Assembly (NCBI RefSeq): GCF_004378255.1
Contig: NZ_SNQG01000001.1
Coordinates: forward strand, 248,001 to 312,000
Length of the DNA stretch: 64,000 nt
Source of the DNA: Mucilaginibacter phyllosphaerae
GTDB lineage: Bacteria > Bacteroidota > Bacteroidia > Sphingobacteriales > Sphingobacteriaceae
Direction: 5' to 3'
A program made the translations under genes and the position numbers. Under the pieces are notes generated by a model. It saw nothing but the letters and a program-made list of their open reading frames with translations, did no database searches and was not told where the DNA came from. Below, one piece after another: positions 14,029-31,734 of this stretch; positions within the stretch are counted from its first letter, which is position 1; every line of letters begins with the position of its first letter.

Positions 14029-14418
14029 ATGAAAAAAACTCTACTGATTGTTGATGACGATTTGAGTATCTTAAAACTGCTCAACTTCATTCTGTCTAAA
14101 GACTACGAGATAGTTGTAAAAAACAACGGCATTGAAGCTTTTAGCTGGCTGGAGGACGGTAATATGCCCAAATTAATTATATCCGACCTGCAGATGCCGT
14201 ATTTTGATGGCCAGTCATTCCTTAAAAATGTTAAAATAAGTGGCTTTTATCGTGATATACCCGTAATTATGCTTTCTGCAGCGCATGATCTTGACGAGCA
14301 GGTTGCCAATATGCCCTTTAAGGTTGATGCTTACATGCACAAGCCGTTTAACCCTGCAACTTTAAAAACAGCCATTACCCAAGCTTTAAAAGTTTATGAC
14401 GAACAAGACAGCAACTGA
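14029..14418 (+). CDS. Single-domain response regulator (CheY-like receiver)
   Basis: Encodes 129 residues, all of it one receiver domain. The acidic pocket is VDDD (residues 9-11), the phospho-acceptor is Asp53 in IISDLQMP, the switch serine is in MLSAA, and the conserved lysine is in HKPF. All catalytic residues are present, so it can be phosphorylated. It has no output domain and no histidine kinase beside it. Its end overlaps the start of the next gene by 23 bp, and that gene encodes a phosphoglycosyl transferase carrying a degenerate receiver domain. The overlap points to coupled translation and a shared task: control of exopolysaccharide initiation is the natural inference. First gene of the EPS locus. 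Confidence 0.92.
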   Translation: MKKTLLIVDDDLSILKLLNFILSKDYEIVVKNNGIEAFSWLEDGNMPKLIISDLQMPYFDGQSFLKNVKISGFYRDIPVIMLSAAHDLDEQVANMPFKVDAYMHKPFNPATLKTAITQALKVYDEQDSN

Positions 14419-15490
14419 TTGGAACGAAAATTCTAATTCGCAGATCAGGATTGCATATGCCGGTTTAGAATTAAAAAATGTAATTGCAACCGATCTGGAA
14501 AAAAATTTCCGCATCGAATATAGCGACACGCTGACAGACCTGGAGAATTACCTGGGCGATCAATCCATACTAACCATTCCGGATATTATTTTGGTTGAGG
14601 CAGATAAGGATAACCAATGCTTTGCCCTGGTTGAGCGCCTGCGCAAAAACTTTTTGATGAACGGCCTGATCATCGTAATGCTATCAACCCGCAAGGATAA
14701 ACAGCAACTGCAAAAAGCCATGCAAATGAAACTGCATGATTTTTATAACCATCCGTTCTCCACCTCAGATCTTCGCGAGCGTTTAAACTTTTTGGTTAAG
14801 TTTAAGCTGATAAAACCACGTTTGCAGGAATTATCTAAAGAAGTGGATACCACCTACAAAATGCCTCCGGGTAAACGCATACTTGATCTTTTAATAGCAG
14901 GCGGCATGCTTATTTGCCTTTTACCGGTTATGGCGATAGTAGCCATCGCCATTAAGTTAGATTCTAAGGGGCCTGTTTTTTATAAAAGCAAACGTGTAGG
15001 CACAGGTTACAAGATCTTTGATTTTTATAAGTTCAGAAGCATGCGTACTGATGCCGACCAGTTATTGGCGCAAATGGCGGTTACCAATAACCAGTATGCT
15101 GCCGAAGAAGAAGGCGCAGCAAAATCGGCCTTTGTTAAGATCAAAAACGACCCCCGCGTAACCAAACTGGGTAATTTTTTACGCAACTCCAGCCTGGACG
15201 AACTACCGCAATTGTTTAATATCATCAGGGGGGATATGTCTGTTGTTGGTAACAGGCCTTTACCTGTCTACGAAGCAGAGATGCTAACGTCTAACGAGTG
15301 GTCGATGCGTTTTTTGGGCCCGGCAGGTTTAACCGGTTTATGGCAGATAAGTAAACGCGGCAAAGAAGATATGAGTGAGCGCGAACGCAAAAAACTGGAT
15401 AATTTTTATGCGCAAAAATACTCATTATGGCTTGATCTGAAGATAATTATAGGTACGGTACCTGCATTGTTTCAAAAAGAGAAGGTTTAA
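14396..15490 (+). CDS. Phosphoglycosyl transferase (EPS initiation) with N-terminal pseudo-receiver domain
   Basis: Encodes 364 residues. Residues about 15-140 align with a receiver fold but the key residues are lost: the acidic pair is replaced (IAYAGL for IVDDDL), the phospho-acceptor position is Glu68 (ILVEAD), and the lysine of KPF is His (NHPF). Residues about 155-364 are a bacterial sugar transferase (PglC/WbaP superfamily): hydrophobic membrane segment LDLLIAGGMLICLLPVMAI, then GPVFYKSKRVG, FYKFRSMR, the catalytic Asp-Glu in SLDELPQLFNIIRGDMSVVGNRPL, and GLTGLWQIS. It attaches a sugar phosphate to undecaprenyl phosphate at the inner membrane. The receiver replaces the extra membrane helices of WbaP-type enzymes. 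Start ATG at 14396 lies inside the preceding gene; translation coupling is likely. Confidence 0.9.
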   Translation: MTNKTATDWNENSNSQIRIAYAGLELKNVIATDLEKNFRIEYSDTLTDLENYLGDQSILTIPDIILVEADKDNQCFALVERLRKNFLMNGLIIVMLSTRKDKQQLQKAMQMKLHDFYNHPFSTSDLRERLNFLVKFKLIKPRLQELSKEVDTTYKMPPGKRILDLLIAGGMLICLLPVMAIVAIAIKLDSKGPVFYKSKRVGTGYKIFDFYKFRSMRTDADQLLAQMAVTNNQYAAEEEGAAKSAFVKIKNDPRVTKLGNFLRNSSLDELPQLFNIIRGDMSVVGNRPLPVYEAEMLTSNEWSMRFLGPAGLTGLWQISKRGKEDMSERERKKLDNFYAQKYSLWLDLKIIIGTVPALFQKEKV

Positions 15491-15507: not shown

Positions 15508-16176
15508 TTGAAAAAATTAAGCATATTAATATTATTTACGTTAAGTACACTGGCACTGCATGCACAGGAATCGTTTATTAACGAGGTTAATTATCCTTAC
15601 CTTGATAAACTGATAGCCACTGCAAAAAGAAACTACCCCGAAGTAAAGGTGCGTATAGCACAAATAAATGCTGCAAAGGCCGCGCTAACCCAATCAAAGG
15701 TTGCCTGGCTGGATGCAATTACGGCATCTTACATCTATAGCCCAAAAAACTCGCTCAACCTAACCAACCCTACTTTTTTTAACGGTTACCAGATAGGCTT
15801 TTCGGTTAATCTGGGCACTTTGCTGGCAAAGCCGTTTGCTACACGCAGCGCAAAAGAAGCGGTTAATATTGCACAATACCAGCAACAGCAATATTATCTT
15901 ACCATAGAAGCAACTGTAAAACGCCTATACTTTACTTACCTGGAAGCGCAGGCAGACCTTCGCAACCGTGCAAGGGCTGTTACCGATGGCGAGATTGCGG
16001 TTAAGCAGTTAAAATACACCTTTCAAAAAGGCGAAACAACATTTCACGATTATAACGAAGCTTTAACAAGTTTATACAATCAAAATTCTTTCAAAGTACA
16101 AAGCGAACTGTCTATATTAACAGCAAAGGCTAATCTTGAAGAATTTTTGGGTGTTAAATTAGAAGAGGTTAAATAG
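15508..16176 (+). CDS. Short TolC-like outer membrane protein
   Basis: Encodes 222 residues starting with TTG at 15508; no ATG lies before the signal peptide (MKKLSILILFTLSTLALHA/Q). The mature part is helical, with AKRNYPEVKVRIAQINAAKAALTQSKVAWL... and ...TVKRLYFTYLEAQADLRNRARAV, ending in SILTAKANLEEFLG, as in the outer membrane efflux protein (OEP) family. Ordinary TolC proteins have two such halves in over 400 residues, so this is about one half. Located in the EPS locus between the initiating transferase and the co-polymerase, 3 bp before the latter, it is a candidate for a periplasmic or outer membrane export part. No Wza-type export lipoprotein is seen. Role is inference. Confidence 0.75.
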   Translation: MKKLSILILFTLSTLALHAQESFINEVNYPYLDKLIATAKRNYPEVKVRIAQINAAKAALTQSKVAWLDAITASYIYSPKNSLNLTNPTFFNGYQIGFSVNLGTLLAKPFATRSAKEAVNIAQYQQQQYYLTIEATVKRLYFTYLEAQADLRNRARAVTDGEIAVKQLKYTFQKGETTFHDYNEALTSLYNQNSFKVQSELSILTAKANLEEFLGVKLEEVK

Positions 16177-16179
16177 AAC

Positions 16180-18333
16180 ATGGAGTTAGGGAAATTTTTT
16201 AAACTTTTGTGGAAACATAAAAACCTGCTGATCATTATTCCGCTGGTTACTATTATTGTTTCTTTTTTCCTGGTAAAAAATCTTGCGGATAAATATGTAT
16301 CAAGCGCACAAATAGCAACAGGTATAGTAGATCAATCGCGCCATTTACTGGATGCCGACCCAACCGCTGCCTCATCTAAAGAGCAGTCGATTGCGCATGA
16401 ATTTAGCAACCTGATAGAGATCATGAAGCTTAAAACGCTTATTAACCAGATCTCGTACCAGCTTATTCTGCATGATCTGAAATCGAAAGTGCCTTTTAAG
16501 CCGGAAAGCAAGCTTTTTAAGAGTATGAACCCCAATGCCCGCCAACACGCAATAGAGGTATTTAGCAAAAAGTTTGAAACGCTGCAACCTCTATCCTATT
16601 ACAATAAGGACGAAGAAGGGCTTAACGAACTGCTGCGCTCGATGAAGTACGATGAACGGTCTTTACGTAAAGATCTGCTGATCGTACGTGATGAGGACAG
16701 CGATTTTATTACCGTAAGCTACGAATCTGAAAACCCGCAGCTATCTGCATTTATAGTTAATGTGCTTTGCAAGCAATTCATTAATTATTATACCACCACT
16801 ATCAGGCAAAACGAAACAGATGCGGTTAACTACCTGGCCAATCTGTTAGAAGAAAAACGCAAGGCATTAAACACCAAAACCAGCCAGCTACAGGATTACA
16901 AGATCCAGAATGGCATCCTGAACCTGGATGAGCAGTCAAAATCTATTTTTGACCAGATAATGGTTTATAACGACCGCAAGCAGCAGGCCGAGCGCGACGT
17001 AGCATCTTACAATGGCGCCATAAAAATCATCGACAGCAAATTTGAACCCGGCGAACGTAAGTACATCGAGGCAAGTATGGTTAAGTACAACCAGGATGTG
17101 ATCAATTCACAGGATCAGTTGCATATTCTTACAGACAGATATGTAAGAAGTAATTTTAACCCAAGATTAAAACCCGCTATTGATTCATTATCAAACAAGC
17201 TTACCGCCCAGATAAACCAAACATCTGATAAATATATTGTTAACCCACTGGTTGGTAAAGATGACCTTGTAAAACAAAAACTAACGCTTGAGGTAACCCG
17301 GGATCTGGCTAAATACAGTATCCGCGCTATTACCGGTGCCTTGAATGATCTTAACGCCAAGTTTAACCGCCTGGTGCCTTTTGATGCTACTGTTAAAACC
17401 TTTAATTTTGATATTGACATTGCCAGTAAAGAGTACCTGGATGTATTAAACAGATATAATCAAACCAACCTGCAGTCTACCTTTTCTATTAAACTGCGCC
17501 AGGTAGAACCGGCCACACCCGATGCCGCCGAGCCATCCAAAAAAATGCTGCTGATAATTCTGAGTGGTGTTATTGCATTTGCGTTTTGCGTTATCGTATT
17601 GTTTGGCATCTTCTTTTTTGATGATACCATTAAAGAACCGGCCGACCTGGTTAAGCGCACTGATTTACCGCTTTTAGGCCATCTTAATACCGTTATGGGT
17701 TCGCTGGACCTTCGTAAGCTATGGGATGTGGAACACCGTGATAAAATGCGCCTTTTTAAAGAACTTATCCGCTCGATACGTTTTGAAGTAGACCAGGAAC
17801 TACGCGGCGAAAAAGTATTGGGCATTACCAGCCTGGCCAACCACGAAGGGAAAACCGTTCTGGCTATCAGCCTGGCATATTCTTATTCCATGATCAATAA
17901 AAAGGTATTGCTGATAGATGGTAATTTTGATAATCCAACCATCAGTAATACTGTACAGCCCAAGGTTTATTTAGAAAATTACTTTAAAAATAACCCCGAT
18001 AATTACGAGCAGCTTAATAATACAACCAATGTTATGGGTAACCATGGCGGCGATGTTACGCTGCTGGAGATAAGCGACGAAAACTTTATCCGCAGTAAGT
18101 TTAATGAATTAAAGACAAAATACGACATCATTATCATTGAAACGCCGCCCTTATCGTCGCTCAATAAATCAAAAGAATGGTTATTGTTTGCCAATAAGGT
18201 GGTATCTGTTTACGAAGCCAATAAGGGTATTGCCAAATGGCAAAAAGATGATGTTAAATATCTAAAAAGCCTGAACGGAAAATTTGCCGGTTGGGTGCTT
18301 AATAAAACCGACCCTAAAAAAGACAGGTTTTAA
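16180..18333 (+). CDS. Wzc-like polysaccharide co-polymerase with ATPase domain, lacking a tyrosine tail
   Basis: Encodes 717 residues. An N-terminal membrane helix (about 15-33) opens a Wzz-type chain length domain with a long coiled-coil periplasmic part (about 200-400); a second helix lies at about 452-475. The cytoplasmic C-terminus is a BY-kinase-like P-loop domain: Walker A in ITSLANHEGKT (Lys558), A' in VLLIDGNFDNPT, and Walker B-like IIIIETPPL, where the usual aspartate is Glu. The protein ends NKTDPKKDRF with no tyrosine cluster, so autophosphorylation as in Wzc is unlikely. It probably sets polymer length together with the Wzy-like protein (18525). The pair of transmembrane helices bracketing a periplasmic domain is what the family shows. 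Confidence 0.9.
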   Translation: MELGKFFKLLWKHKNLLIIIPLVTIIVSFFLVKNLADKYVSSAQIATGIVDQSRHLLDADPTAASSKEQSIAHEFSNLIEIMKLKTLINQISYQLILHDLKSKVPFKPESKLFKSMNPNARQHAIEVFSKKFETLQPLSYYNKDEEGLNELLRSMKYDERSLRKDLLIVRDEDSDFITVSYESENPQLSAFIVNVLCKQFINYYTTTIRQNETDAVNYLANLLEEKRKALNTKTSQLQDYKIQNGILNLDEQSKSIFDQIMVYNDRKQQAERDVASYNGAIKIIDSKFEPGERKYIEASMVKYNQDVINSQDQLHILTDRYVRSNFNPRLKPAIDSLSNKLTAQINQTSDKYIVNPLVGKDDLVKQKLTLEVTRDLAKYSIRAITGALNDLNAKFNRLVPFDATVKTFNFDIDIASKEYLDVLNRYNQTNLQSTFSIKLRQVEPATPDAAEPSKKMLLIILSGVIAFAFCVIVLFGIFFFDDTIKEPADLVKRTDLPLLGHLNTVMGSLDLRKLWDVEHRDKMRLFKELIRSIRFEVDQELRGEKVLGITSLANHEGKTVLAISLAYSYSMINKKVLLIDGNFDNPTISNTVQPKVYLENYFKNNPDNYEQLNNTTNVMGNHGGDVTLLEISDENFIRSKFNELKTKYDIIIIETPPLSSLNKSKEWLLFANKVVSVYEANKGIAKWQKDDVKYLKSLNGKFAGWVLNKTDPKKDRF

Positions 18334-18519: not shown

Positions 18520-18524
18520 GCCTT

Positions 18525-20030
18525 ATGCTTAACAACCAGGCACATCATAACGGCTTTATTGTAAACTTTGCACGCAAACTTTTTGCAGGCAAGGTTTCTA
18601 CCTTTAAAATGGTACTGCTGTTTTTGCCTGTGGCTATAATTATAGCTGTGGCAATTGCTATGGGCGGTATAATTGCGGCCGGTGGTTTGCTGGTGGTATT
18701 TGTTGGCATACCTATTATTTTAGCCATTGTGGCCTACCCTATTTTTGGCATTGCAGTGCTGATGGTGGTATCCTTTTTTTTAAATTATGTATCAGAATTT
18801 GTGCCGCCGGATACCCCCACCGGCATCATTCTGGATGGTATCACCTACCTGCTGATATTCGGTTTCCTGCTTAAATTTAAGTATGATAGGGATTGGGCCC
18901 ACTTTAAAAACCCCATCAGCTATTTTATATTGGCCTGGCTGGCCTACAACTTTGTGGAAGTGGGCAACCCGGCGTCGCCATCAATATTAGCCTGGGTGTA
19001 CACGGTACGTACCGTAGGCTTTATTATGCTGATGTACTTTATATTTGTTTATCAGGTACGTACCGTAGCACAAATCAAATTTCTGATAAAACTTTGGCTT
19101 GTAATGGCTTTCCTATCGGCCGTATCCGGTTTTCAGCAGGAAAACTTTGGGCTGTTCCCGTTCGAGAAGGCCTGGTACTACTCAGACCCGCTGCGGCTGA
19201 GTTTTTTATACATCAACGGGCACCTGCGCAAAGTATCTATCTACCCGGATCCGGTTACGTTTTCGTATAATATGGTTGTTGCAGCTGTATTATGCCTTTG
19301 CCTTATTTTTACTAAAATAAAAACTTATAAAAAGGTATTGCTCGGGCTGTCAATCCCGTTTTTCTTTTTGGTGATGCTTTACTCGGGCACCCGCGGGGCC
19401 TTTGTATTGCCGCCTGCTGCACTGGCATTACTGGCCGTAATGAATTTCAATAAAAAAATACTGCTGTTTGTAATTAGTGCCGGCATTGTATTAACCGGGT
19501 TAATATTTATGCCCACATCCAATCAGTTCATCAAACGTTTCCAAACGGCTTTCAGGCCATCAGATGATCCATCCTTTAACGTTCGTGCCGAAAACCAAAA
19601 ACGTATTAAACCGTATATATTATCGCATCCCATAGGGGGTGGTTTAGGCTCTGTTGGTATTTGGGGGCGGCGTTTTGCACCCAACTCCTTCCTGGCAAAA
19701 TTCCCGCCGGATAGTGGTTATGTACGCGTTGCTGTTGAGATGGGGTATATAGGTTTAATATTATTTTGTACCTTAATGTTTGTGATATTAAAAACGGGCA
19801 TCAACAATTATTACCTTATTAAAAACCCCGAGTTGAAAATTTATTGCCTGGCGATGGTATTAATCATTTTTGTGTTTAATATTGGTAATTATCCGCAGCA
19901 GGCATTAGTACAGTATCCATCAAATATTTTGTTTTATCTTGCATGTGCATTATTAAGTGTTACTTTACGAATTGACCAGCAGGAACGGAAAGAACAAGCT
20001 GATAAACAAGCGGCTGAACTAACCGCCTGA
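18525..20030 (+). CDS. Wzy-like polysaccharide polymerase / O-antigen ligase family membrane protein
   Basis: Encodes 501 residues, about twelve hydrophobic segments, with a long periplasmic loop between about residues 330 and 400 (RFQTAFRPSDDPSFNVRAENQKRIKPYILSHPIGGGLGSVG). The motif HPIGGGLGSVG and the arginine-bearing loop with 'NVR' are typical of the O-antigen ligase/Wzy superfamily. It probably joins repeat units (or ligates chains) on the outer face of the inner membrane. Neighbours (co-polymerase, flippase, transferases) support the polymerase role rather than WaaL ligation. Low sequence identity is normal in this family, so the assignment rests on topology, loop motif and context. 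The gene lies 5 bp after the small membrane protein. Confidence 0.8.
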   Translation: MLNNQAHHNGFIVNFARKLFAGKVSTFKMVLLFLPVAIIIAVAIAMGGIIAAGGLLVVFVGIPIILAIVAYPIFGIAVLMVVSFFLNYVSEFVPPDTPTGIILDGITYLLIFGFLLKFKYDRDWAHFKNPISYFILAWLAYNFVEVGNPASPSILAWVYTVRTVGFIMLMYFIFVYQVRTVAQIKFLIKLWLVMAFLSAVSGFQQENFGLFPFEKAWYYSDPLRLSFLYINGHLRKVSIYPDPVTFSYNMVVAAVLCLCLIFTKIKTYKKVLLGLSIPFFFLVMLYSGTRGAFVLPPAALALLAVMNFNKKILLFVISAGIVLTGLIFMPTSNQFIKRFQTAFRPSDDPSFNVRAENQKRIKPYILSHPIGGGLGSVGIWGRRFAPNSFLAKFPPDSGYVRVAVEMGYIGLILFCTLMFVILKTGINNYYLIKNPELKIYCLAMVLIIFVFNIGNYPQQALVQYPSNILFYLACALLSVTLRIDQQERKEQADKQAAELTA

Positions 20031-20044
20031 TATATTTAAGATAC

Positions 20045-20659
20045 ATGTCGCTAATAAGTGTAGTAAAATCAAATCCGCGTTTAAAAAAGTTTGTGCATTG
20101 GCTTATTGTGCAGCCGCGCAGGGCTGCACCAAGGCTTTGGGTTAAATGGTTTGTTAACCCGTTTATACACAAACGCGGCAAAGGTTCTATTGTAAAATTC
20201 AATTCAAGATTTGATATTTTCCCCTTTAACAAATTTGAGCTTGGCGCATACAGCGTGATAGAAGATTTTGCCGTGATCAATAATGGCGTGGGCGATGTTA
20301 TCATCGGCCACCACACAGGTATCGGTTTAAGTAACGTGATGATAGGCCCGGTAACTTTGGGCAATTATGTGGTTATGGCACAGCACGTAGTGTTATCGGG
20401 GTTAAACCATGGGTTTGAGGATGTAACGATATCTACAAGGCTGCAAAAAGTGGTAACCAAACCAATTACCGTATGCGATGATGTATGGATAGGCGCTAAC
20501 TCGGTTATTACCGCCGGGGTTACCATTGGCAAACATTCGGTAATTGGTGCAGGCAGCGTAGTTACCAAAGATATCCCCGAGTATTGCGTAGCAGTTGGTA
20601 ACCCGGCAAAAATCATCAAAAAATATAATTTTGAAACCGGCAACTGGGACAGGGTTTAG
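20045..20659 (+). CDS. Hexapeptide-repeat (left-handed beta-helix) acyltransferase
   Basis: Encodes 204 residues. Series of hexapeptide turns ([LIV]-G-x4) is visible: IIGHHTGIGLSNVMIGPVTLGNYVVMAQHVVL, then VCDDVWIGANSVITAGVTIGKHSVIGAGSVVTKDIPEYCVAVGNPAKIIKKY. This is the classical trimeric acyl/acetyltransferase fold, with the C-terminal 'GNPAKII' signature of the O-acetyltransferases of surface polysaccharide loci. The active-site His is probably within GLNHGFEDVTI. Substrate is likely a sugar of the EPS repeat unit, acetyl-CoA the donor (inference from context). Its ATG lies 14 bp after the polymerase stop, so it is in the same operon. Confidence 0.88.
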   Translation: MSLISVVKSNPRLKKFVHWLIVQPRRAAPRLWVKWFVNPFIHKRGKGSIVKFNSRFDIFPFNKFELGAYSVIEDFAVINNGVGDVIIGHHTGIGLSNVMIGPVTLGNYVVMAQHVVLSGLNHGFEDVTISTRLQKVVTKPITVCDDVWIGANSVITAGVTIGKHSVIGAGSVVTKDIPEYCVAVGNPAKIIKKYNFETGNWDRV

Positions 20660-20674
20660 CCGTATAACCAACAT

Positions 20675-22018
20675 ATGCCCGATTTAAAAAAATTCATAAA
20701 TAAGCATACCATATCATTAGCCACCAGTGCGGCCATGCCCGTTATTGGCATGCTGGTACTTTCGTTAATGGCGCATAACCTGCCTGCGGTAGATTTTGGT
20801 AATTATATATTCCTGCTAATAACCATTCTGCTGGCCGATACCTTCAGAAACGGCTTTGTACAAACATCGCTTATTAAATTTTATGCGGGCACAAGCAAAA
20901 AAAAGGCGGTAGAAATAGCAGGATCTGCCTGGTTTGTAGGCTTAATGCAGGCAGGGGTATTTGTAGCTATAGACGGGATCATTTACCTGGTTTATCACAG
21001 CAAAAGCGCGGATGCAGAAACAACCATACAATGGTTTGGCATTATATATATGACCACCCTACCCGCAGCAATTGCTTCATACATTTTACAGGCCGAAGAA
21101 AAATTTGGCCGGATGCTTTTTTTGCAGGTGCTTAACCAGGGGCTTTTCCTGGCATTTATACTTACGCTGATCTTTACACACAAGTTAACATTCCAGACGG
21201 CGGTTTACGCGTATTTTTTAGGTGGGGCCATTACCTCGCTGCTCACTATTTTTAACGGATGGTCAAAAATCAGAACCATCAGGCATCGTACAAAAGAGAG
21301 CGTAAGCAAATTAGCCCATTTTGGAAAATTCAGCGTGGGTACGTCCATCAGTTCCTACCTGTTACGCAGCTCTGATACCTTTATTATAAAACTGATGTTT
21401 AACCCCGCCTTGCTGGCGGTATATTATATCCCCCAGCGTTTAATGGAAGTTTTTGAAATACCGATGCGTGCCGGTGTTGCTACCGCCATGCCCGAGCTGT
21501 CTGCAGCTGTGCACAAAAATAATGAGGAAGAAGTAGCCAGCATCATGAAACGCTATGCAGGCATGTTAACGGTTACCCTTATCCCCATTGCCATTGTTGC
21601 ATTTTTACTGGCAGCGCCCGTTATAGAATTGCTTTTTGGTAAACAGTATCACGAAACAGAAGCGGTCAATATCTTCCGTTTGTTTATGTGCTATGTAATG
21701 CTGATGCCTGTTGACAGATTTTTTGGTGTTACGCTGGATATAATTAACAAACCTCATCTTAACATGCTGAAGGTAATTTTAATGCTGACAGTAAATGTAG
21801 CCGGGGATTTTATCGGTATCTGGATTTTTCACAGTTTATACGCTGTAGCCATAGCTTCGTTATTTACATTTTTTTCGGGAGCAGTTTTTGGTTACTGGGC
21901 TTTAAAAAAGCATCTTAAATTTACTATCAGAGATATTTTCAGCCTCGGCTATCAGGAACTGAAGAACGTAATTAACCATTTATTAGAAAAATCTAAAATA
22001 GACAAAGCAGAAGTTTAA
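20675..22018 (+). CDS. Wzx-like lipid-linked oligosaccharide flippase (MATE/MVF-type)
   Basis: Encodes 447 residues with about twelve transmembrane helices. It begins LKKFINKHTISLATSAAMPVIGMLVLSLMAHNLPAVDFGNYIFL, which matches the first two helices of polysaccharide-type flippases (polysaccharide biosynthesis family). Middle part has LLRSSDTFIIKLMFNPALLAVYYIPQRLMEV, typical of the central loop of Wzx. Predicted to flip the undecaprenyl-linked repeat unit to the periplasmic face for the polymerase at 18525. Starts 15 bp after the acyltransferase gene. No odd features. Confidence 0.85.
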   Translation: MPDLKKFINKHTISLATSAAMPVIGMLVLSLMAHNLPAVDFGNYIFLLITILLADTFRNGFVQTSLIKFYAGTSKKKAVEIAGSAWFVGLMQAGVFVAIDGIIYLVYHSKSADAETTIQWFGIIYMTTLPAAIASYILQAEEKFGRMLFLQVLNQGLFLAFILTLIFTHKLTFQTAVYAYFLGGAITSLLTIFNGWSKIRTIRHRTKESVSKLAHFGKFSVGTSISSYLLRSSDTFIIKLMFNPALLAVYYIPQRLMEVFEIPMRAGVATAMPELSAAVHKNNEEEVASIMKRYAGMLTVTLIPIAIVAFLLAAPVIELLFGKQYHETEAVNIFRLFMCYVMLMPVDRFFGVTLDIINKPHLNMLKVILMLTVNVAGDFIGIWIFHSLYAVAIASLFTFFSGAVFGYWALKKHLKFTIRDIFSLGYQELKNVINHLLEKSKIDKAEV

Positions 22019-22036
22019 TTACTAAAACATTTTAAT

Positions 22037-23224
22037 ATGGGGTTTATCCTTTTTGTTATTTCTTTGATTTTCACGCTCATTTTTATATACCTGGGTGTTT
22101 ATAGCCTGTACCTTTTTGTTTTTTCGGTTTTGGGCCGGTTGGTTAAACAGCGCACCCCACCTGCTGCAAGTGGCTTTAGTAAATTTGTGATCTATATCTG
22201 TGCCTATAAAGAGGACGCCATCATCCTTAATTCGGCTGCGCAGGCTTTAACTATTGATTACCCGCAGGATAAATTTCAGGTTTGTGTTATTGCCGATTCT
22301 ATGCAGCCCCAAACTATCCAAAAGTTAAAAACGATGCCTTTACAGGTGGTAGAGGTGGTGTTTGAAAGCAGCACCAAATCTAAAGCCCTGCATGCTGCCA
22401 TAGCTGCTACACATGATGATTTTGATGCAGCCGTGGTATTTGATATTGATAACATAGCCGCACCGGATTACCTGCACCAGATAAACAATTACCTGCACGA
22501 TGGTAACCGGGTGATACAGGGCCATCGCATCGCTAAGAATACCGAAACACCCGTTGCCATACTGGATGCCATCAGCGAGGAAATAAATAACCATATCTTC
22601 CGTAAGGCACAACAGGTTTTTAAACTGTCGGCCGCCATTATAGGGTCGGGCATGGTGCTGGAGTTTAAACTGTTTAAAGATACCATGGCGCAGATAGATG
22701 CCGTGGGTGGTTTTGATAAAGAGATGGGCCTGGTGCTTACCCGCCAAAAGATACATGTGGCCTATGCCGATAAAGCATACGTTTATGATGAAAAAGTAAG
22801 CAACCCCGAAGTATTTAAAAAGCAACGCCGCCGCTGGTTATCTGCCCAGTTTAACTTGCTAAAAACATACGGTTTAACCGGCTTTAAAGAGTTATTTGCG
22901 AATGGCAACTTCGATTATTTTAACGAGATATACCAAACCGCCATCTTACCGCGTATATTAATGCTGGGGCTAATGCCGTTTATGCTTTTGGTATCACTAT
23001 TAACACCCGGCATTGGCCCGGGATGGCAATTATGGCTTGCAGCAACGGCTTTATGCTATATTGGTATATTAGTTGCAGTACCAGCACAGTTCTTTAACAG
23101 TAAATTGCTGGGCGCCTTGCTTAAAATACCTTTGATATTCTTTGCAATGCTGGCCTTGCTGTTTAAACTGAAGGGCGCCAACAAAAAATTTATCCATACA
23201 CCGCATAACCCGGATGCCAGTTAA
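22037..23224 (+). CDS. Membrane glycosyltransferase family 2, synthase-like
   Basis: Encodes 395 residues. One N-terminal membrane helix (about 5-30), a GT-A domain, then about three helices at the C-terminus (about 300-380). The catalytic parts are visible: CAYKEDAIILNSAAQALTIDYP, donor site VFDIDNIAAPDYL (DxD-like DID), GSGMVLEFKLF, and QRRRWLSAQ, which matches the Q-x-x-R-W motif of processive cellulose/hyaluronan-synthase-like enzymes. In a locus with a Wzx and Wzy-like protein it may instead add single sugars to the lipid carrier. No other dedicated glycosyltransferase lies in the locus, which is unusual. Sugar specificity cannot be read. Confidence 0.82.
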   Translation: MGFILFVISLIFTLIFIYLGVYSLYLFVFSVLGRLVKQRTPPAASGFSKFVIYICAYKEDAIILNSAAQALTIDYPQDKFQVCVIADSMQPQTIQKLKTMPLQVVEVVFESSTKSKALHAAIAATHDDFDAAVVFDIDNIAAPDYLHQINNYLHDGNRVIQGHRIAKNTETPVAILDAISEEINNHIFRKAQQVFKLSAAIIGSGMVLEFKLFKDTMAQIDAVGGFDKEMGLVLTRQKIHVAYADKAYVYDEKVSNPEVFKKQRRRWLSAQFNLLKTYGLTGFKELFANGNFDYFNEIYQTAILPRILMLGLMPFMLLVSLLTPGIGPGWQLWLAATALCYIGILVAVPAQFFNSKLLGALLKIPLIFFAMLALLFKLKGANKKFIHTPHNPDAS

Positions 23225-23330: not shown

Positions 23331-25970
23331 ATGGAAGCAGGACTAAATAATACACAAGCAGATTACCCGCGTAACATAGCACTGCACCACCTTATTGCTA
23401 AAAAAGCGGGTGAAATGCCCGATAAAATTGCTATAAAATTCGGGCAGCGTACTTTAAGCTTTAAAACCGTTAATGATGCCGCCAGCAAGCTGGCAAGGCA
23501 TTTACTTAGCTTCGATATAAAAACCGGCGATATTATTGGGCTGGCGGTTGACCGATCGCCGGAAATGATCATTTCTTTACTGGCTATTTTAAAAACCGGT
23601 GCAGCGTATATCCCGCTTGACCCGGAATACCCCAAAGACAGGATTGAATTTATGCTGGAAGATTCGGCAGCAAAAATCCTGATCACATCAAATAAATATA
23701 AAGGCCACTTTACATCAAACGCTACCGAGGTATTGCTGGAAGATGCCTGGGATAAAATTAACGGCTACCCTGCCGAAGAACCTGACACCGAAGTTACCGG
23801 CCAGGATCTGGCTTATGTATTGTTCACGTCGGGATCTACGGGTAAGCCAAAGGGCGTACAAATTAAGCATCATAACCTGGTTAACTTTTTGTTAAGCATG
23901 GCAAAAACACCCGGGATGACCGCTGATGATAAACTACTGGCGGTAACCACCATATCTTTTGACATAGCCGGCCTGGAGCTATTTTTGCCCTTGCTTACCG
24001 GTGCCCAGATAGTTTTAACGGATACAATTACGGCAAAAGACGGGCGCGCATTGCTTGAACTTGCTGTTAACGAGCAGATCTCTATCATGCAGGCCACCCC
24101 CTACACCTGGCGCATGATGCTGGAAATTGGCTGGGATCAAAAATTACCGCTAAAAGTTTTGTGCGGCGGCGAGGCCTTACCCAAAGATCTGATAAATAAA
24201 CTTACCGCCCGCTGCAGCGAACTTTGGAATATGTACGGCCCTACCGAAACCACAGTATGGTCTACCGTTAAGCATATTAAGAACGATACAGATATTACCA
24301 TTGGCAAACCTATTGATAATACACAGGTATATATTTTAAACGAGCAGTTGGCCGAGGTAGAAACCGGTGCCATCGGCGAGATTTTTATTGGCGGCGACGG
24401 CGTTGCCTTAGGCTATCTGAACAGGCCCGAATTAACCTCAGAACGTTTTGTTGATAATAAAATCACCGGCGTTGCGGGTGATAAAATTTATCGCACCGGC
24501 GATTTGGGCAAGATAACCCCCACCGGCGAGATACAGTGCCTGGGCCGGATAGATCACCAGGTAAAGGTACGCGGTTACCGGATAGAACTGGAAGAGATTG
24601 AGCATGCGCTATCCTGGCAGGAAAACGTTAAAGAAGCCGTTGTAGTGGCGCGTGAAGACCGTCCCGGCGACCCACGCCTGGTTGGTTACATTGTTTTATC
24701 ATCAGGAGAAACTAAGGTTGCAGATTTTAATGCATTTACAGAAGCCTGGCAAAGGGCGCTGTTGGGCCAATTGCCTGAATATATGGTGCCTGATGATTTT
24801 GTGCTGATGGATGCCATACCTATTACGCCAAATGGTAAAATAGACAGAAAGGCTTTGCCGGCGCCGGATTACAGCCAGATAACCCGTACAGAAAACAATG
24901 AATATGTTGCCCCGCGCACAGCTAACGAAAAATTAGTAGCCGGTATCTGGCAGGAAATGATGGGCCTGGAGAATATTGGCATATATGATAACTTTTTCCA
25001 GCTGGGAGGCCGCTCGTTGGTTGCTGTAAGGATCATGGCCTGTTTAGAGCAGGAAACCGGCAAACGTTTGCCTTTGGCTACTTTGTTTGAGCACTCCACT
25101 GTAGAAAAGCTGGCTGCACGTTTAGAATTAAATGCAGAAGCCATTAGCTGGGAGTCGTTGGTGCCTATTAAACCCAAAGGCAGCAAAATGCCTTTGTACA
25201 TTGTACATGGCGCCGGCTTAAACGTATTGCTGTTTAACGCCCTCGCCATGAATATGGATGAAGAACAGCCCGTATATGGCTTACAGGCCAAAGGGCTTAA
25301 CGGGATAGACGAGCCGCTGGATGTGATGGAAGAAATTGCAGCAAATTACGTAGAAGAGATCATCAACCACGACCCGGTTGGCCCCTACGCCGTTGCAGGG
25401 TATTCGCTTGGCGGGATGATAGCTTACGAAATGGCTAAACAAATGCTGGCTATGGGCAAGGATGTTAAAATGCTGGCCATGTTTGATACCTATGCCGACC
25501 AAACACAGAAATATGATTCGTTATTAAAACGCATTGTAAAAAATGGATGGCTGCTTATTAAGCAAGTTGCTTATACCCCGGTGCTATTTGTGCAGGACCC
25601 CAAACGTACCATAGAATATAAAAGCCGCGAAGTTGGCCGCCGCATCCAAAAAGTATTTAAAAAGGTCTTTCCGGATAAGGTGAAGAAAAAAGAGGGCGCC
25701 TTGGCTTATACCGATGATATAAACGAACGCAGCCATGCTGCGCAAAAAAATTATTTATTAACTCCAGTAAATATTACTCTCGAACTTTTCCGGGCTCAAA
25801 AGAAAACCTTTTACATGGATGATTTTAAGCTTTTAGGCTGGAAACCTTATGCTCTTAAAGGTGTTAATGTACATGATATTCCCGGTGAGCATAACACTAT
25901 TTTTGCCCCGCCTAATGATAAGCAATTTGCCAAAGTATTGCAGCAATGTTTAGATAGGGCCGTTAAATAA
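23331..25970 (+). CDS. Nonribosomal peptide synthetase module A-PCP-TE, predicted to activate glycine
   Basis: Encodes 879 residues with no condensation domain. Adenylation domain about 10-515: AEQ-like start, LFTSGSTGKPKGV (about 163-175), YGPTETT (about 302), GEIFIGGDGVALGYLNRPE, YRTGDLG, RIDHQVKVRGYRIELEEIE and NGKIDRKALP (Lys503). By eye against GrsA numbering, the specificity code reads D211, I212, L215, Q254, L277, G279, M301, V309, W310, K503, close to the glycine code DILQLG-IWK. Carrier domain about 530-605 with LGGRSL (Ser562 takes phosphopantetheine). Thioesterase about 625-879 with GYSLGG (Ser692), a likely Asp in MFDTYAD, and His854 in GEHNTIF. It follows the EPS genes after 106 bp in the same direction. 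It may load glycine onto carbohydrate or lipid; what receives it is unknown. Confidence 0.88.
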   Translation: MEAGLNNTQADYPRNIALHHLIAKKAGEMPDKIAIKFGQRTLSFKTVNDAASKLARHLLSFDIKTGDIIGLAVDRSPEMIISLLAILKTGAAYIPLDPEYPKDRIEFMLEDSAAKILITSNKYKGHFTSNATEVLLEDAWDKINGYPAEEPDTEVTGQDLAYVLFTSGSTGKPKGVQIKHHNLVNFLLSMAKTPGMTADDKLLAVTTISFDIAGLELFLPLLTGAQIVLTDTITAKDGRALLELAVNEQISIMQATPYTWRMMLEIGWDQKLPLKVLCGGEALPKDLINKLTARCSELWNMYGPTETTVWSTVKHIKNDTDITIGKPIDNTQVYILNEQLAEVETGAIGEIFIGGDGVALGYLNRPELTSERFVDNKITGVAGDKIYRTGDLGKITPTGEIQCLGRIDHQVKVRGYRIELEEIEHALSWQENVKEAVVVAREDRPGDPRLVGYIVLSSGETKVADFNAFTEAWQRALLGQLPEYMVPDDFVLMDAIPITPNGKIDRKALPAPDYSQITRTENNEYVAPRTANEKLVAGIWQEMMGLENIGIYDNFFQLGGRSLVAVRIMACLEQETGKRLPLATLFEHSTVEKLAARLELNAEAISWESLVPIKPKGSKMPLYIVHGAGLNVLLFNALAMNMDEEQPVYGLQAKGLNGIDEPLDVMEEIAANYVEEIINHDPVGPYAVAGYSLGGMIAYEMAKQMLAMGKDVKMLAMFDTYADQTQKYDSLLKRIVKNGWLLIKQVAYTPVLFVQDPKRTIEYKSREVGRRIQKVFKKVFPDKVKKKEGALAYTDDINERSHAAQKNYLLTPVNITLELFRAQKKTFYMDDFKLLGWKPYALKGVNVHDIPGEHNTIFAPPNDKQFAKVLQQCLDRAVK

Positions 25971-26115: not shown

Positions 26116-29100
26116 ATGAATTACTTTCTAAATCTTTTCCGTTCACGCAAGGGGCAGATCATTGTATCTGTATCCTTAATATTGATCTCATTAGTTATAT
26201 TTTTTGCCCGTCAGCACCATCGCAGCAAGCAGCAAACGGTTGATGTAGCATTCAGCAAATACATAGAATCGTACACCACAGGTGTAATTTCCAAACAAAG
26301 CACCATCCGCATTAAACTGGCCGGCGCAGTACAGGTTTCGCATGCGCAGAACGAACAGCTAAGTGAGGGTGTCTTTGATTTTTCACCGTCTATAAAAGGT
26401 AAAGCCTACTGGATAGACGACCGGACAATCGAGTTTCGACCGGCAGCAGCTTTAGATATCGACAAAAAGTATGAGGCCGACTTTAACTTAGGCAAGATTA
26501 TTAAGACAGAAAGCGATCTTGAACATTTTAAATTCACTTTTCAAACCATAAAGCCGGATTTCAGCATCACTTTTGCAGGCCTGCAAAGCGCAAGTGCAAC
26601 TTCTGGCGCGATCATGAAACTCACAGGCAGCATAGCCACTGCCGATGGCGAAGATCAGTCGGCAATTGAAAAACTGCTTGAAGTAAACTATAATACGCCG
26701 GTAAAGGTAAATTGGCAGCATAACCCTGTTGCCAAATCGCACCAGTTCACTATTACTAAAATAACGCGCACTAACACCGCCAACCCATTAACCATAAACT
26801 GGGATGGCGATAAGCTGGATATTGATAAAAAAGGCAGCCAGGAATTTCGCGTACCGGCCTTAGGCGAATTTAAGGTGCTGGATATCAAAGCCGTGCAGGA
26901 CAACGACCAATACGTATCCGTGCAGTTTTCTGACCCTATTATGATTGGCCAGGATCTAAGCGGACTGATAGGCATCAACAACTCATCCGGCCTGGCCTAC
27001 ACCATAGACGGCAGCATAGTAAAAGTATATGCCCCGGAGCGTTTACAAGGCAATTTTAGCGTTTTTGTAAATGAGGGTGTAGCAGATATAAACCACCGTA
27101 AAATAAAAACGGCATTTACAGCCAACGTATTTTTTGAGAACCGCGAACCGGCGGTGACCATTCCGGGCAGGGGCGTTATCCTGCCTGATTCGGGCAAGCT
27201 GATGATGCCTTTTGAAGCCGTTAATTTAAGTGCGGTTGATGTAAGCATTATTAAAATTTACGAAAACAACGTACCCCAGTATTTCCAGAACAACGGTTTT
27301 GACGGTGGTTACGAACTTAGGCACGTTGGTAAACCAATAGTGCAGAAAACGATCCGTTTAGATGCGGATAAAGGGCTGAATTTGGCGAAAAAGAATCGTT
27401 TTATGCTGGATGTAGACCAGCTAATGCGCGCCGAACCCGGTGCCATTTACCGGGTTGTTATCGGTTTCAGAAAAGAGTATTCATTGTACAATTGCACAGC
27501 AGCTAAAGGTGTGTCTAAAAGTGATGATGATGGCGATGATTACGAAGGCGGCGACTATGCGGGTGATAATCTAAATAAGATAAACGATGAAGACGACGAT
27601 TTTTGGCAGCGTTACGATAATTATTACCCCGAAGGCTATAACTGGCAGGAACGTAACGACCCATGCAGCGAATCGTACTTTAGCAAGCAGCGCTGGGCAA
27701 CGCGTAACATCATTGCATCAAACATTGGCCTGATAGCAAAAAGGGGCAATGATAATAATATAACCATTGCGGTAACCAATATTCTGAGTGCCCAACCCAT
27801 GGGCGGTGTTGACCTGGAACTGCTGGATTATCAGAAACAGGTGATCTTTAAAACCACTTCAGATGGAGACGGTATGGCAACATTCAGCCTGAAGCGTAAA
27901 CCGTATTTACTGGTGGCTAAAAAAGGTAACGAGCGTGGCTATCTGAAGCTGGATGATGGCAGTTCCCTGCCTCTTTCGCGATTTAATGTAGGCGGCGAGC
28001 AGGTACAAAATGGCCTTAAAGGGTTCCTTTATGGCGAACGGGGCGTATGGCGGCCCGGAGATTCTATTTTTGTAACATTCATCCTGGAGGATAAACTTAA
28101 AACCTTACCGGCAGACCATCCGGTTGAATTTGAGTTATATAACCCCAACGGGCAGTTATACCGCCGTATTACCCGCACAAGCGCTGTTGATGGTTTCTAC
28201 AGTTTCCATACCGCTACCGAAACCTCGTCGCCTACCGGTAACTGGAACGCCAGGGTTAAAGTTGGCGGTGCATCTTTCGAGAAAAAAATAAAGGTAGAAA
28301 CCATTATGCCTAACCGCCTCAAACTAAAGCTTGATTTTGGGGGCGCCACTGAACTAACCAAAGGCGACGGGGCCAATGGCACACTTAGCGCACAATGGCT
28401 TTTTGGCGGCACAGCGCAAAATTTGAATGCCAAGGTTGATGCCTTCCTGTCCTCGCAAACCACCAGCTTTAAAGGTTATGAGGATTATAATTTTGACGAC
28501 CCTACCCTGGCCTTCAATACCCAAACACAAACCGTTTTTGAAGGTAAGCTGAACGAGAACGGCATTGCATCTGTTAATACCAATATCAACGTTGAAAAGC
28601 AGGCACCGGGGCAATTGCGTGCCAATTTTGTGGTAAAGGTATTTGAACCCGGCGGCAATTTTAGTTTGCAGCAGGCCAATATGCCGTACAACGTTTATAG
28701 CGGCTATGTAGGCATCAAAACGCCTAAAGGAAGCGATTTGAGCGGCATGCTGGTAACGGATAAAAACCATGTAATAGAGATTGCAGATGTAGACACCAAA
28801 GGCCGGGGCTTTGCCGGCAGCCGTAATGTAGAACTGGAGCTTTACAAGATCCAATGGCGCTGGTGGTGGGATGAAACAGGTAACGAGTTGAGCAACTTTA
28901 CGCAGGATCGTTATAATAAGCTTATTAAAACAGAAACGGTGCAGTTAGAGAACGGTAAAGGCAAATGGAACCTAAAAATTAACCAGGCAGACTGGGGCCG
29001 TTACCTCATCCGTATTAAAGACCCGCAAACCGGGCACTCTACAGGAAAGATCATTTATGCGGATTGGCCAAACTGGTCGGAAAGGTTGCAGAACACAGAC

Positions 29101-31734
29101 CCCACCGAGGCGGCAATGCTTTCCTTTACATCAGACAAGCCGAGTTACAAGGTTGGCGAGGAGGCCACCTTAACCATCCCAACGGGCGGCGACGGACGCG
29201 CCCTAATTAGCTTTGAAAACGGCTCAAAAGTCCTAAAAACGACCTGGATTGACACCAAAAAAGGCGAAACCCGTTATAGCTTTAAGGTTGATGAAACCAT
29301 GGCGCCAAACGTTTTTGTGAACGTTACCCTTTTACAGCGGCATGCACAAACAGTTAACGATTTGCCGATACGTATGTACGGCGCTATCCCGCTAAACGTT
29401 GATAACCCCGAAACCATCCTGAAACCGGTTATCAGTATGCCGGATAAGATCAGGCCCGAAACGCAGTCGGCTATTACCGTATCCGAGGCATCGGGTAAAG
29501 AAATGACCTATACCATTGCCATTGTAGATGAAGGCCTGCTGGATATTACCAATTACAAAACCCCCGATCCGCATGAGGCATTTTATGCCCGCGAGGCCCT
29601 GGGCGTTAAAACCTGGGATCTGTTCGATTATGTGATCGGTGCTTTTGGCGGCGGGTTAGAACGCATCCTCAGCATAGGTGGCGATGGCACGAATGGCACC
29701 AATAAAAATGTATCTGTTAATCGTTTTAAACCTGTAGTAAAATTCCTGGGGCCGTTCCACCTGGGTAGCGGAGATAAACAAACACATAAATTCACCTTAC
29801 CCCAGTATGTAGGTTCGGTTAAGGCTATGGTGATTGCCGGCCACAACGGCGCTTATGGTATGGCAGAAAAAGCAGTAGCCGTTAAAAAACCGCTGATGAT
29901 ATTGGCTACGCTGCCGCGCGTGCTCGGTCCCTCAGAAAGTATCCAGCTACCGGTTACCGTTTTTGCGATGGAAAACAACATTAAAGCAGTAACCATACAG
30001 GTACAATCTAATGCATTCAGCAATTTAGGCGGCAACAATATTAAGGTTGTAAAATTTGCCAAACCGGGCGATCAACTGGTAACATTTGATTTAAATGTAA
30101 AGGATTTTGTGGGCGTAGGCAAAGTAAGGATAATTGCCAAAGCCGGCAGCGAAACCGCCGCTTATGACGTGGAATTAAATGTGCGTAACCCTAACCCGCC
30201 TGCAACCCGTATTTTTGAAAAAGAACTAAAACCCGGTGAACAATACGGTGCTGTTTATAATGCGATTGGGATAAACGGCACCAATAAAGCATCATTAGAA
30301 GTTTCGAGCATACCGCCGTTGAACTTGGCTAAACGCTTAGGTTACCTTATTTCTTACCCGCATGGCTGTGTAGAACAAACCACGTCTGCTGCGTTCCCAC
30401 AACTGTATTTAAGCCAACTGCTTGACCTTACACCAAGACAAAAGGCCGAAGCTGAACGCAATATAAAACTGGCTGTAAACCGCTTAAATGGCTTCAGGGT
30501 GCAGGGCGGCGGCTTGAGCTATTGGCCCGATGGCGGGCAAGCCGACGAATGGGGAACCAACTATGGCGGGCATTTTATGCTGGCAGCACAAGCTATAGGT
30601 TACAGTTTACCATCGGGCTTTATAGATGATTGGAAAAAATTCCAAAAACAAAAAGCCGTTAACTGGTCGCCAGACCCGCGTACCAATATCCACGGGTATT
30701 ATTACTATACGGATCTGATACAAGCCTATCGCTTATACCTGCTGGCCCTTTCCGGTTCGCCAGAATTGGGTGCCATGAACCGCTTGCGCGAATACCAGTA
30801 TATAAGCATAGAAGCCCGCTGGCGTTTAGCAGCAGCTTACAAACTGGCCGGCCAGCCCGAAATTGGTTTACGCATGATTGCAGGTTTGCCAACCACCATT
30901 AAACCATATAGCAGTATGTACGGCACCTATGGGTCTGATCTGCGCGATGAGGCCATGATCCTGGAAACCCTTACTCTGCTTGGCCAGCAGCAAAAAGCAT
31001 CGGGCATGGTACGTTCGGTGGCTGCCAAATTATCGCAGGATAGCTGGTATAGTACACAAACTACCGCCTATTCGCTTTTTGCCATAGCAGAATATTGTGG
31101 TGTAAATAAAAGCAGCAGCAAGTTATCATTCAATTACAATGTGGGTTCGGCAAAAGGAAGTATCAATTCGGCATCATACCTTTGGCAGCAGGTGCTGGCA
31201 CCTAATGGCGGAAAGATAAACCTAAAAAACACCGGCACAAACAAGCTGTATATACGCCTGATACTGCAGGGGCAGCCATCATCGGGGCAGGATGTTAAAA
31301 CATACATCAATCCGGATGTGATGCAGATGCGCATTGCTTATTTTACTTTAAGCGGCAAACCTGTTGATGTAACATCACTTAAACAAGGCAGCGATTTTGT
31401 GGCCCAGGTAACCATCAAAAATCCTGGCAAACGCGGCCGTTATGATAACCTGGCCTTAACACAGATTTTCCCATCCGGTTGGGAGATATTAAATAACCGG
31501 ATGCTGAACAATGACGAAGCATTTAAATCATCACCATCCGATTATCGCGATATACGCGACGACCGGGTAAATACCTACTTTAGTTTGGCTGAAGGGAAAG
31601 AAGTTACCTATTATGTGATGCTGAATGCAGCCTACACAGGTAAATATTACCTGCCTGCCGCATATTGCGAGGCCATGTATAACCACGATATTAACGCATT
31701 GCTAAAAGGCCAGTGGGTGCAGGTGGTGAAGTAA
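26116..31734 (+). CDS. Bacterial alpha-2-macroglobulin (A2M) family protein
   Basis: Encodes 1872 residues. A hydrophobic segment at about 13-31 (IIVSVSLILISLVIFFA) acts as membrane anchor or signal. Macroglobulin-like repeats follow, including an MG2-type region (GVWRPGDSIFVTFILED...), and a bait-region-like mid part. The thioester motif CVEQ is intact (Cys1418, in YPHGCVEQTTS), flanked by the alpha-helical toroid (KAEAERNIKLAVNRLNGFRVQGGGLSYWPDGGQ...). A2M traps proteases in the periplasm and is thought to protect cells together with PBP1c. No pbpC is adjacent here. An acidic stretch (about residues 470-500, rich in Asp/Glu/Gly) is unusual. Upstream gap is 145 bp. Confidence 0.93.
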   Translation: MNYFLNLFRSRKGQIIVSVSLILISLVIFFARQHHRSKQQTVDVAFSKYIESYTTGVISKQSTIRIKLAGAVQVSHAQNEQLSEGVFDFSPSIKGKAYWIDDRTIEFRPAAALDIDKKYEADFNLGKIIKTESDLEHFKFTFQTIKPDFSITFAGLQSASATSGAIMKLTGSIATADGEDQSAIEKLLEVNYNTPVKVNWQHNPVAKSHQFTITKITRTNTANPLTINWDGDKLDIDKKGSQEFRVPALGEFKVLDIKAVQDNDQYVSVQFSDPIMIGQDLSGLIGINNSSGLAYTIDGSIVKVYAPERLQGNFSVFVNEGVADINHRKIKTAFTANVFFENREPAVTIPGRGVILPDSGKLMMPFEAVNLSAVDVSIIKIYENNVPQYFQNNGFDGGYELRHVGKPIVQKTIRLDADKGLNLAKKNRFMLDVDQLMRAEPGAIYRVVIGFRKEYSLYNCTAAKGVSKSDDDGDDYEGGDYAGDNLNKINDEDDDFWQRYDNYYPEGYNWQERNDPCSESYFSKQRWATRNIIASNIGLIAKRGNDNNITIAVTNILSAQPMGGVDLELLDYQKQVIFKTTSDGDGMATFSLKRKPYLLVAKKGNERGYLKLDDGSSLPLSRFNVGGEQVQNGLKGFLYGERGVWRPGDSIFVTFILEDKLKTLPADHPVEFELYNPNGQLYRRITRTSAVDGFYSFHTATETSSPTGNWNARVKVGGASFEKKIKVETIMPNRLKLKLDFGGATELTKGDGANGTLSAQWLFGGTAQNLNAKVDAFLSSQTTSFKGYEDYNFDDPTLAFNTQTQTVFEGKLNENGIASVNTNINVEKQAPGQLRANFVVKVFEPGGNFSLQQANMPYNVYSGYVGIKTPKGSDLSGMLVTDKNHVIEIADVDTKGRGFAGSRNVELELYKIQWRWWWDETGNELSNFTQDRYNKLIKTETVQLENGKGKWNLKINQADWGRYLIRIKDPQTGHSTGKIIYADWPNWSERLQNTDPTEAAMLSFTSDKPSYKVGEEATLTIPTGGDGRALISFENGSKVLKTTWIDTKKGETRYSFKVDETMAPNVFVNVTLLQRHAQTVNDLPIRMYGAIPLNVDNPETILKPVISMPDKIRPETQSAITVSEASGKEMTYTIAIVDEGLLDITNYKTPDPHEAFYAREALGVKTWDLFDYVIGAFGGGLERILSIGGDGTNGTNKNVSVNRFKPVVKFLGPFHLGSGDKQTHKFTLPQYVGSVKAMVIAGHNGAYGMAEKAVAVKKPLMILATLPRVLGPSESIQLPVTVFAMENNIKAVTIQVQSNAFSNLGGNNIKVVKFAKPGDQLVTFDLNVKDFVGVGKVRIIAKAGSETAAYDVELNVRNPNPPATRIFEKELKPGEQYGAVYNAIGINGTNKASLEVSSIPPLNLAKRLGYLISYPHGCVEQTTSAAFPQLYLSQLLDLTPRQKAEAERNIKLAVNRLNGFRVQGGGLSYWPDGGQADEWGTNYGGHFMLAAQAIGYSLPSGFIDDWKKFQKQKAVNWSPDPRTNIHGYYYYTDLIQAYRLYLLALSGSPELGAMNRLREYQYISIEARWRLAAAYKLAGQPEIGLRMIAGLPTTIKPYSSMYGTYGSDLRDEAMILETLTLLGQQQKASGMVRSVAAKLSQDSWYSTQTTAYSLFAIAEYCGVNKSSSKLSFNYNVGSAKGSINSASYLWQQVLAPNGGKINLKNTGTNKLYIRLILQGQPSSGQDVKTYINPDVMQMRIAYFTLSGKPVDVTSLKQGSDFVAQVTIKNPGKRGRYDNLALTQIFPSGWEILNNRMLNNDEAFKSSPSDYRDIRDDRVNTYFSLAEGKEVTYYVMLNAAYTGKYYLPAAYCEAMYNHDINALLKGQWVQVVK

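Follow-up and report, generated by a model that had tools for sequence, protein, structure and literature searches.

Bacterial polysaccharides can bear amino-acid substituents, but only a small number of the responsible enzymes are known, and the soil genus Mucilaginibacter is known for abundant slime. Among the closest described systems, AlmEFG adds glycine to the lipid A of Vibrio cholerae and DltABCD adds D-alanine to teichoic acid, and in both an adenylation (A) domain and a carrier activate a small amino acid; in V. cholerae, the lipopolysaccharide (LPS) is glycinylated by a trio of A domain, carrier and transferase (PMC3783018). We analyzed a window, the whole stretch of 64,000 nucleotides from Mucilaginibacter phyllosphaerae, in which the complete open reading frame (ORF) 23331..25970 encodes a protein made of an A domain, a peptidyl carrier (PCP) domain and a thioesterase (TE) domain, referred to here as A-PCP-TE, at the end of an exopolysaccharide (EPS) operon. 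Unlike AlmEFG and DltABCD, this system is one polypeptide, in which a type I TE stands for AlmG or DltB/DltD. The gene has a fixed place at the end of a Wzx/Wzy EPS operon and in most cases is retained alongside a polyketide synthase (PKS) and nonribosomal peptide synthetase (NRPS) pair, which suggests that Mucilaginibacter attaches amino-acid-derived groups to polysaccharide by an unstudied route. The parts are known and their arrangement is new; the system is not of a new kind.

The position of the gene is maintained across the genus. We surveyed 150 Mucilaginibacter genomes, counting as orthologs full or partial proteins of at least about 60% identity. The ortholog was found in 63 genomes and the GT2 glycosyltransferase of the operon in 71. 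The two genes adjoin each other in 62 of the 63 genomes, the exception (G101) being a contig end, and no genome without GT2 has an ortholog. On the strength of this adjacency, a chance placement beside the EPS operon was rejected. The operon order was kept in the sampled loci, some with an extra glycosyltransferase and a few without the hexapeptide acyltransferase. An earlier note on this DNA, made from its letters alone, had placed the module directly after EPS genes and had named relatives carrying the gene far from EPS genes as a possible refutation. The upstream genes indeed constitute a Wzx/Wzy-type polysaccharide operon, and for the true orthologs that refutation did not materialize.

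Pfam matches divided the protein into AMP-binding (residues 24-363, 3.7e-85), AMP-binding_C (422-503), PP-binding (536-598, 3.2e-12) and Thioesterase (621-765, 4.1e-24), with no match to the Condensation domain (PF00668). Ser562 of the carrier is found in the motif GGRSL, and the TE triad consists of Ser692 in GYSLGG, His854 in GEHNTIF and Asp719 as the acid. None of these four residues varies among the 50 relatives aligned (28 EPS-linked, 12 other A-PCP-TE and 10 C-A-PCP-TE proteins, the latter with an additional condensation (C) domain). The residues Ser562, Ser692 and His854 lie where the earlier note had put them, and its observation of a missing C domain agrees with Pfam. The TE domain also bears two long basic lid helices at about residues 731-779.

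The origin of this protein could be traced to the PKS-NRPS pair. In the window genome (G000), the pair is located on contig C14 at about 82,993-93,780 (L059:12993-19748, L060:2-4535), followed by a phosphopantetheinyl transferase (PPTase) gene. Its first protein has the architecture A-PCP-ketosynthase-acyltransferase-PCP-class III aminotransferase and its second is a C-A-PCP-TE protein. The window protein shares 53-59% identity with C-A-PCP-TE paralogs, and 56% with the A-PCP-TE part of the copy from the same genome. In a maximum-likelihood tree inferred from 85 A-PCP-TE regions, one clade (99) comprised the EPS-linked proteins plus two moved copies (G007 C2 and G047 C17). This clade was nested among the pair's C-A-PCP-TE modules, and proteins of the free A-PCP-TE type arose several times. 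Moreover, the paralogs carry the HHxxxDG motif of a C domain, in place of which the window protein starts at a relic of the linker between C and A domains: LNNTQADYPRN-IALHHLI aligns with WNNTEVDYPKD-KALHQLI of the paralog. The tree nesting and the relic linker both indicate that A-PCP-TE descends, through loss of the C domain, from a terminal module of a Bacteroidota PKS-NRPS system, and a primordial stand-alone module was rejected on the same grounds. The "stand-alone module" of the earlier note, which had noticed neither the relic linker nor the pair, needs revision: the protein is a terminal module after C-domain loss that usually co-occurs with the pair. The window protein differs from the modules among which it nests in being encoded in an EPS operon instead of beside a PKS.

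The substrate of the A domain was approached through its specificity code. The HMMER/MAFFT alignment gave DILQLGMVWK (D211, I212, L215, Q254, L277, G279, M301, V309, W310 and K503), identical to the code previously read by eye against GrsA. We compared the pocket region, 148 residues at about 192-339, with solved structures by HMMER alignment, and the best matches were DhbF module 1 (PDB 5U89, 3.1e-34) and AB3403 (PDB 4ZXH, 3.7e-34), the latter a C-A-PCP-TE protein. Their codes are DILQLGLIWK and DILQLGVVWK, respectively, the final Lys of both lying outside the alignment and being assumed. Both are listed as glycine enzymes, and in DhbF the pocket is closed off by a Trp that forms a bond with a Gln (PMC11253843); Gln254 and Trp310 of the window protein align with this pair. 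Glycine is thus a well-supported prediction for the substrate of the window A domain, as the earlier note had expected from the code. The likeness to AB3403 and DhbF module 1 comprises the glycine-type A domain, the Gln-Trp pair and the PCP, and with AB3403 also the type I TE. It ends there, as the window protein has no C domain and is encoded in an EPS operon, and the whole-protein match is only moderate. Among the orthologs, some keep DILQLGM[VI]WK, and about half of those sampled have drifted to DI[LVI]QFG[ML]IYK or similar. Because of this drift, glycine can be assigned more safely to the window protein than to the clade as a whole.

The partner pair, which by its domain order would lengthen an activated acid by one malonyl unit, introduce an amino group at the beta-carbon and join the product to glycine, tends to be present wherever A-PCP-TE is. 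The PKS partner was found in 57 of 63 genomes with A-PCP-TE versus 8 of 87 without it, and among GT2-positive genomes in 57/63 versus 2/8 (Fisher p about 1.5e-4, ancestry not corrected for); three of the genomes in this survey are incomplete (G068, G073 and G112). The C-A-PCP-TE protein of the window genome has the glycine-type code DILQIGVIWK. In larger-genome species, all parts form one contiguous supercluster, Wzx-GT-GT2-A-PCP-TE-acyltransferase_3-GTa-GTb-PKS-NRPS-C-A-PCP-TE-PPTase, and the PKS lies within 30 kb of GT2 in 29 genomes. In small-genome species, the parts occupy separate loci, with GTb of the window genome at C6:50001-51230 and the acyltransferase no more than about 5 kb away from GTb in G048, G064 and G042. 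The tree of concatenated EPS proteins shows A-PCP-TE and the pair missing together at no fewer than three points (G122/G025/G116, G126/G127 and G145). In G126/G127, GT2 is followed directly by GTa, and both flanks of GTa-GTb are lost, A-PCP-TE with acyltransferase_3 on one side and PKS-NRPS-PPTase on the other. As G145 belongs to a clade with unlinked loci, physical co-deletion is unlikely there. In G025, G122 and G116 (L080, L081, L085), we also observed a minus-strand cassette between GT2 and GTa where A-PCP-TE is missing, one protein of which is weakly similar to response-regulator receiver (REC) domains.

Taken together, we tentatively favor, with confidence somewhat short of even, a reading in which the enzyme loads glycine and its TE passes the glycine to a nucleophile of the EPS pathway, within an aminoacyl or peptidyl decoration of the polysaccharide, having evolved by loss of the C domain. 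The A domain would make glycyl-AMP, and glycine would be loaded on the phosphopantetheine of Ser562, for which the likely PPTase is the one encoded beside the partner pair. From the carrier, glycine would move to Ser692 of the TE and then to an acceptor outside the protein, the most likely nucleophile being a sugar hydroxyl or amine of the EPS pathway. The partner pair would supply a beta-amino-acyl-glycine-like unit to the same decoration. With no C domain, a single glycine and nothing to cyclize, the loaded residue could productively go either to a nucleophile from outside or to a second enzyme; its hydrolysis by the TE would be futile. The external transfer, its acceptor and a chemical link to the pair are what we infer here. 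Glycyl transfer to the polymer is plausible but may belong, as a single step, to a larger decoration pathway, given the co-occurring PKS-NRPS pair and the supercluster with its extra glycosyltransferases and membrane acyltransferase in large genomes, and the biology of A-PCP-TE probably extends beyond the transfer of one glycine. For the window genome there is no support for acyltransferase_3 as the obligatory transferase, since only a 33% homolog is encoded elsewhere in it, although homologs of 52-60% are present in three relatives.

There is a precedent for a TE that acylates sugars. The Pks13 TE offloads its product onto a polyol, with a preference for trehalose (PMC9210659), and this type I TE is among the fold-search matches of our TE model (pLDDT 87). 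Its acyl substrate and host are very different, however, the identity is about 20%, and many TEs that are not transferases match equally well. If our reading is correct, the gene would provide a genetic handle on the amino-acid decoration of polysaccharides, a possible case of a TE domain serving as a glycan acyltransferase, and a rule by which similar NRPS modules in polysaccharide loci of other phyla could be interpreted. Moreover, the chemistry of Mucilaginibacter EPS becomes testable by single gene deletions. Literature searches on the exact code, on NRPS and EPS in Mucilaginibacter, and on exosortase and AMP-ligase returned nothing directly relevant, and the coupling of PKS-NRPS to EPS appears undescribed in the literature searched.

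Several observations weigh against this reading. Cyclases and hydrolases match the TE model as well as Pks13-TE does, making the fold search uninformative among hydrolase, cyclase and transferase, and no sequence feature distinguishes a transferase TE from a hydrolase TE. Nor did a dedicated glycyltransferase or an acceptor emerge from the analysis. The drifted code in part of the ortholog clade possibly reflects another small substrate there. Some more distant free A-PCP-TE proteins (about 45-52% identity), among them those of the same genus, are not near EPS genes; those of the genus form a separate set in the tree. The co-occurrence counts ignore shared ancestry and have exceptions in both directions: G004 keeps the pair without A-PCP-TE and without a detectable remnant of it, G007 and G061 have A-PCP-TE and no pair, and G147 has A-PCP-TE but, of the pair's first protein, just an A-PCP fragment. 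Furthermore, of six plasmid relatives at a greater distance (about 35-37% identity), five are ordinary NRPS ends with no polysaccharide genes around them, and next to the remaining one there is a single GT2.

The strongest alternative, which we consider rather unlikely, is that A-PCP-TE and the PKS-NRPS pair make a small diffusible aminoacyl or peptide product, and that the EPS linkage reflects co-regulation in surface or biofilm life, not polymer chemistry. The strong co-occurrence with the pair, the location of the pair away from recognized EPS genes in Flavobacteriaceae and Hymenobacter, and the mostly ordinary NRPS ends among the distant relatives would all fit such a product. However, an A-PCP-TE protein without a C domain cannot itself make a peptide bond in the usual way, the gene stays beside GT2 in 62 of 63 genomes even with the pair elsewhere in the genome, and in Pedobacter the pair is also found among UDP-sugar dehydrogenase and flippase genes. 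Glycinylation of a membrane lipid or LPS component in the manner of AlmEFG or DltABCD, with the TE as the transferase, seems improbable to us. Activation of small amino acids by AlmE/DltA-type enzymes is the closest tested precedent (PMC3783018, PMC11253843), and DltA-type A domains are homologous to that of the window protein, but no LPLAT (AlmG-like) or MBOAT (DltB-like) transferase was found among the ten neighbors scanned, PF01757 acyltransferases neighbor the gene only in some relatives, and the gene has its fixed place in a Wzx/Wzy operon, not in a lipid A or LPS-core locus.

We give equally little credence to A-PCP-TE being an accessory acting in trans on the PKS-NRPS line, either serving glycine to C-A-PCP-TE or using its TE to edit or unload misprimed carriers. 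The paralogy to C-A-PCP-TE, the glycine-type code common to both proteins and their joint absences would be expected for such an accessory; nevertheless, the small-genome clade ties A-PCP-TE to the EPS operon and not to the pair, and each persists without the other being intact in the four exceptional genomes named above. Membership in a named natural-product family was rejected as neither A-PCP-TE nor the pair scored above the cut-off of any named NCBIfam equivalog, and a defense system was rejected as a PADLOC scan gave no match.

The exosortase-A-associated AMP ligase family, TIGR03098, comprises AMP-forming enzymes of the carrier-loading type from EPS loci. The A-PCP-TE protein scored 245.6 bits against this model, well short of its cut-off of 592.35. 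The model covers a ligase only, with no PCP-TE fusion, and no exosortase context was seen at the window locus.

Comparable arrangements recur in other lineages. The same PKS-NRPS pair is found in Flavobacteriaceae, Hymenobacter, Spirosoma, Chitinophagaceae and Pedobacter, and in Pedobacter TE-terminated modules with a glycine code (DIL Q[IF]GMIYK) are found among polysaccharide genes, for UDP-sugar dehydrogenase and flippase. In a Calditrichia bacterium, whose TE-terminated module likewise has a glycine code, the PKS and NRPS parts are fused into a protein of 3466 aa, which is flanked by two Wzy-like genes and has a Wzz/kinase gene next to it (L149:817-17751). The cyanobacterium Rhizonema encodes, in one protein, a GT2 domain, half a C domain without HHxxxDG and a glycine-code A-PCP-TE (L140:7363-11862) within a sugar transferase-Wzy-Wzx locus, although an assembly error is possible in this metagenome-assembled genome. 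On plasmid ABRG53f of Pseudanabaena sp. ABRG5-3 (L179, NZ_AP017566.1 73623-104229), three PKS genes and an NRPS gene lie directly upstream of flippase, glycosyltransferase and wzy genes, and a gammaproteobacterial C-A-PCP-TE protein with the less typical code DLPQLGMVWK adjoins a Wzy gene. We rejected the notion that relatives of the module are generally in EPS loci, since among seven plasmid neighborhoods only that of Pseudanabaena has flippase or wzy genes; glycine-code TE modules among polysaccharide genes are recurrent, not general. An extended proposal, which we regard as possible though on the unlikely side, is that Mucilaginibacter produces a hybrid polymer, in which a Wzx/Wzy repeat unit would carry PKS-NRPS-made beta-amino-acyl-glycine and/or glycine, with TE domains as glycan acyltransferases, and that some Pedobacter, Calditrichota and cyanobacteria would do so by convergence or transfer.

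The features of the window locus are compiled in the table.

Table. Features of the A-PCP-TE gene and the EPS operon preceding it, in window coordinates.
Feature	Position	Strand	Basis
Response-regulator-like (REC) protein, first gene of conserved operon	14029..14418	+	Synteny; REC assignment by eye
Initiating sugar-phosphate transferase (PF02397)	14396..15490	+	Profile matches
Outer-membrane efflux-type protein OEP (PF02321)	15508..16176	+	Pfam
Wzz-like chain-length/BY-kinase-like protein	16180..18333	+	Profile matches
Wzy-type polymerase, Wzy_C (PF04932)	18525..20030	+	Pfam
Hexapeptide O-acyltransferase (WbbJ/WcaF-like)	20045..20659	+	Profile matches
Wzx-type flippase (PF13440/PF01943)	20675..22018	+	Pfam
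GT2 glycosyltransferase (EpsU-like)	22037..23224	+	Profile matches, genus survey
A-PCP-TE protein, 879 aa, ATG start	23331..25970	+	ORF list, domain search, ortholog search
Relic C-A linker LNNTQADYPRN	23343..23375	+	Alignment with WNNTEVDYPKD of C-A-PCP-TE paralog
Adenylation domain, residues 24-509	23400..24857	+	Pfam and structure-guided code alignment
Peptidyl carrier domain, residues 536-598, phosphopantetheine Ser562	24936..25124	+	Pfam and alignment
Type I thioesterase domain, residues 605-879, triad Ser692-Asp719-His854	25143..25967	+	Pfam, alignment, structural model

The genes upstream of A-PCP-TE, at 14029-23224 and all on the plus strand, make up the Wzx/Wzy-type operon that A-PCP-TE closes, which unites an initiating transferase, Wzx, Wzy, Wzz, an outer-membrane protein and a glycosyltransferase in one directional block. 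The outer-membrane gene is of the OEP type (PF02321), no Wza-type protein being present among the ten proteins scanned. Most gaps measure 3-19 nt, but Wzy is preceded by one of 191 nt and A-PCP-TE by one of 106 nt, and the REC and sugar transferase genes overlap by 23 nt. As for the 106-nt gap, no terminator-like site was found in it on the plus strand, and A-PCP-TE is likely co-transcribed with the EPS operon. The hexapeptide acyltransferase is missing from the EPS operons of four relatives (L057, L058, L084 and L088), three of which keep A-PCP-TE. A 150-residue N-terminal part of the sugar transferase is weakly similar to response regulators (PleD/PhoB models; window 14029-15490, together with the REC gene), and phosphorelay control of EPS initiation is possible. 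The window genome contains a further large NRPS/PKS cluster at C10:366799-387106 (L061, L062), with proteins of about 3024, 1280 and 1544 aa. Directly 3' of A-PCP-TE lies a gene for a large bacterial alpha-2-macroglobulin-type protein (26116-31734), a neighbor conserved in the small-genome clade only.

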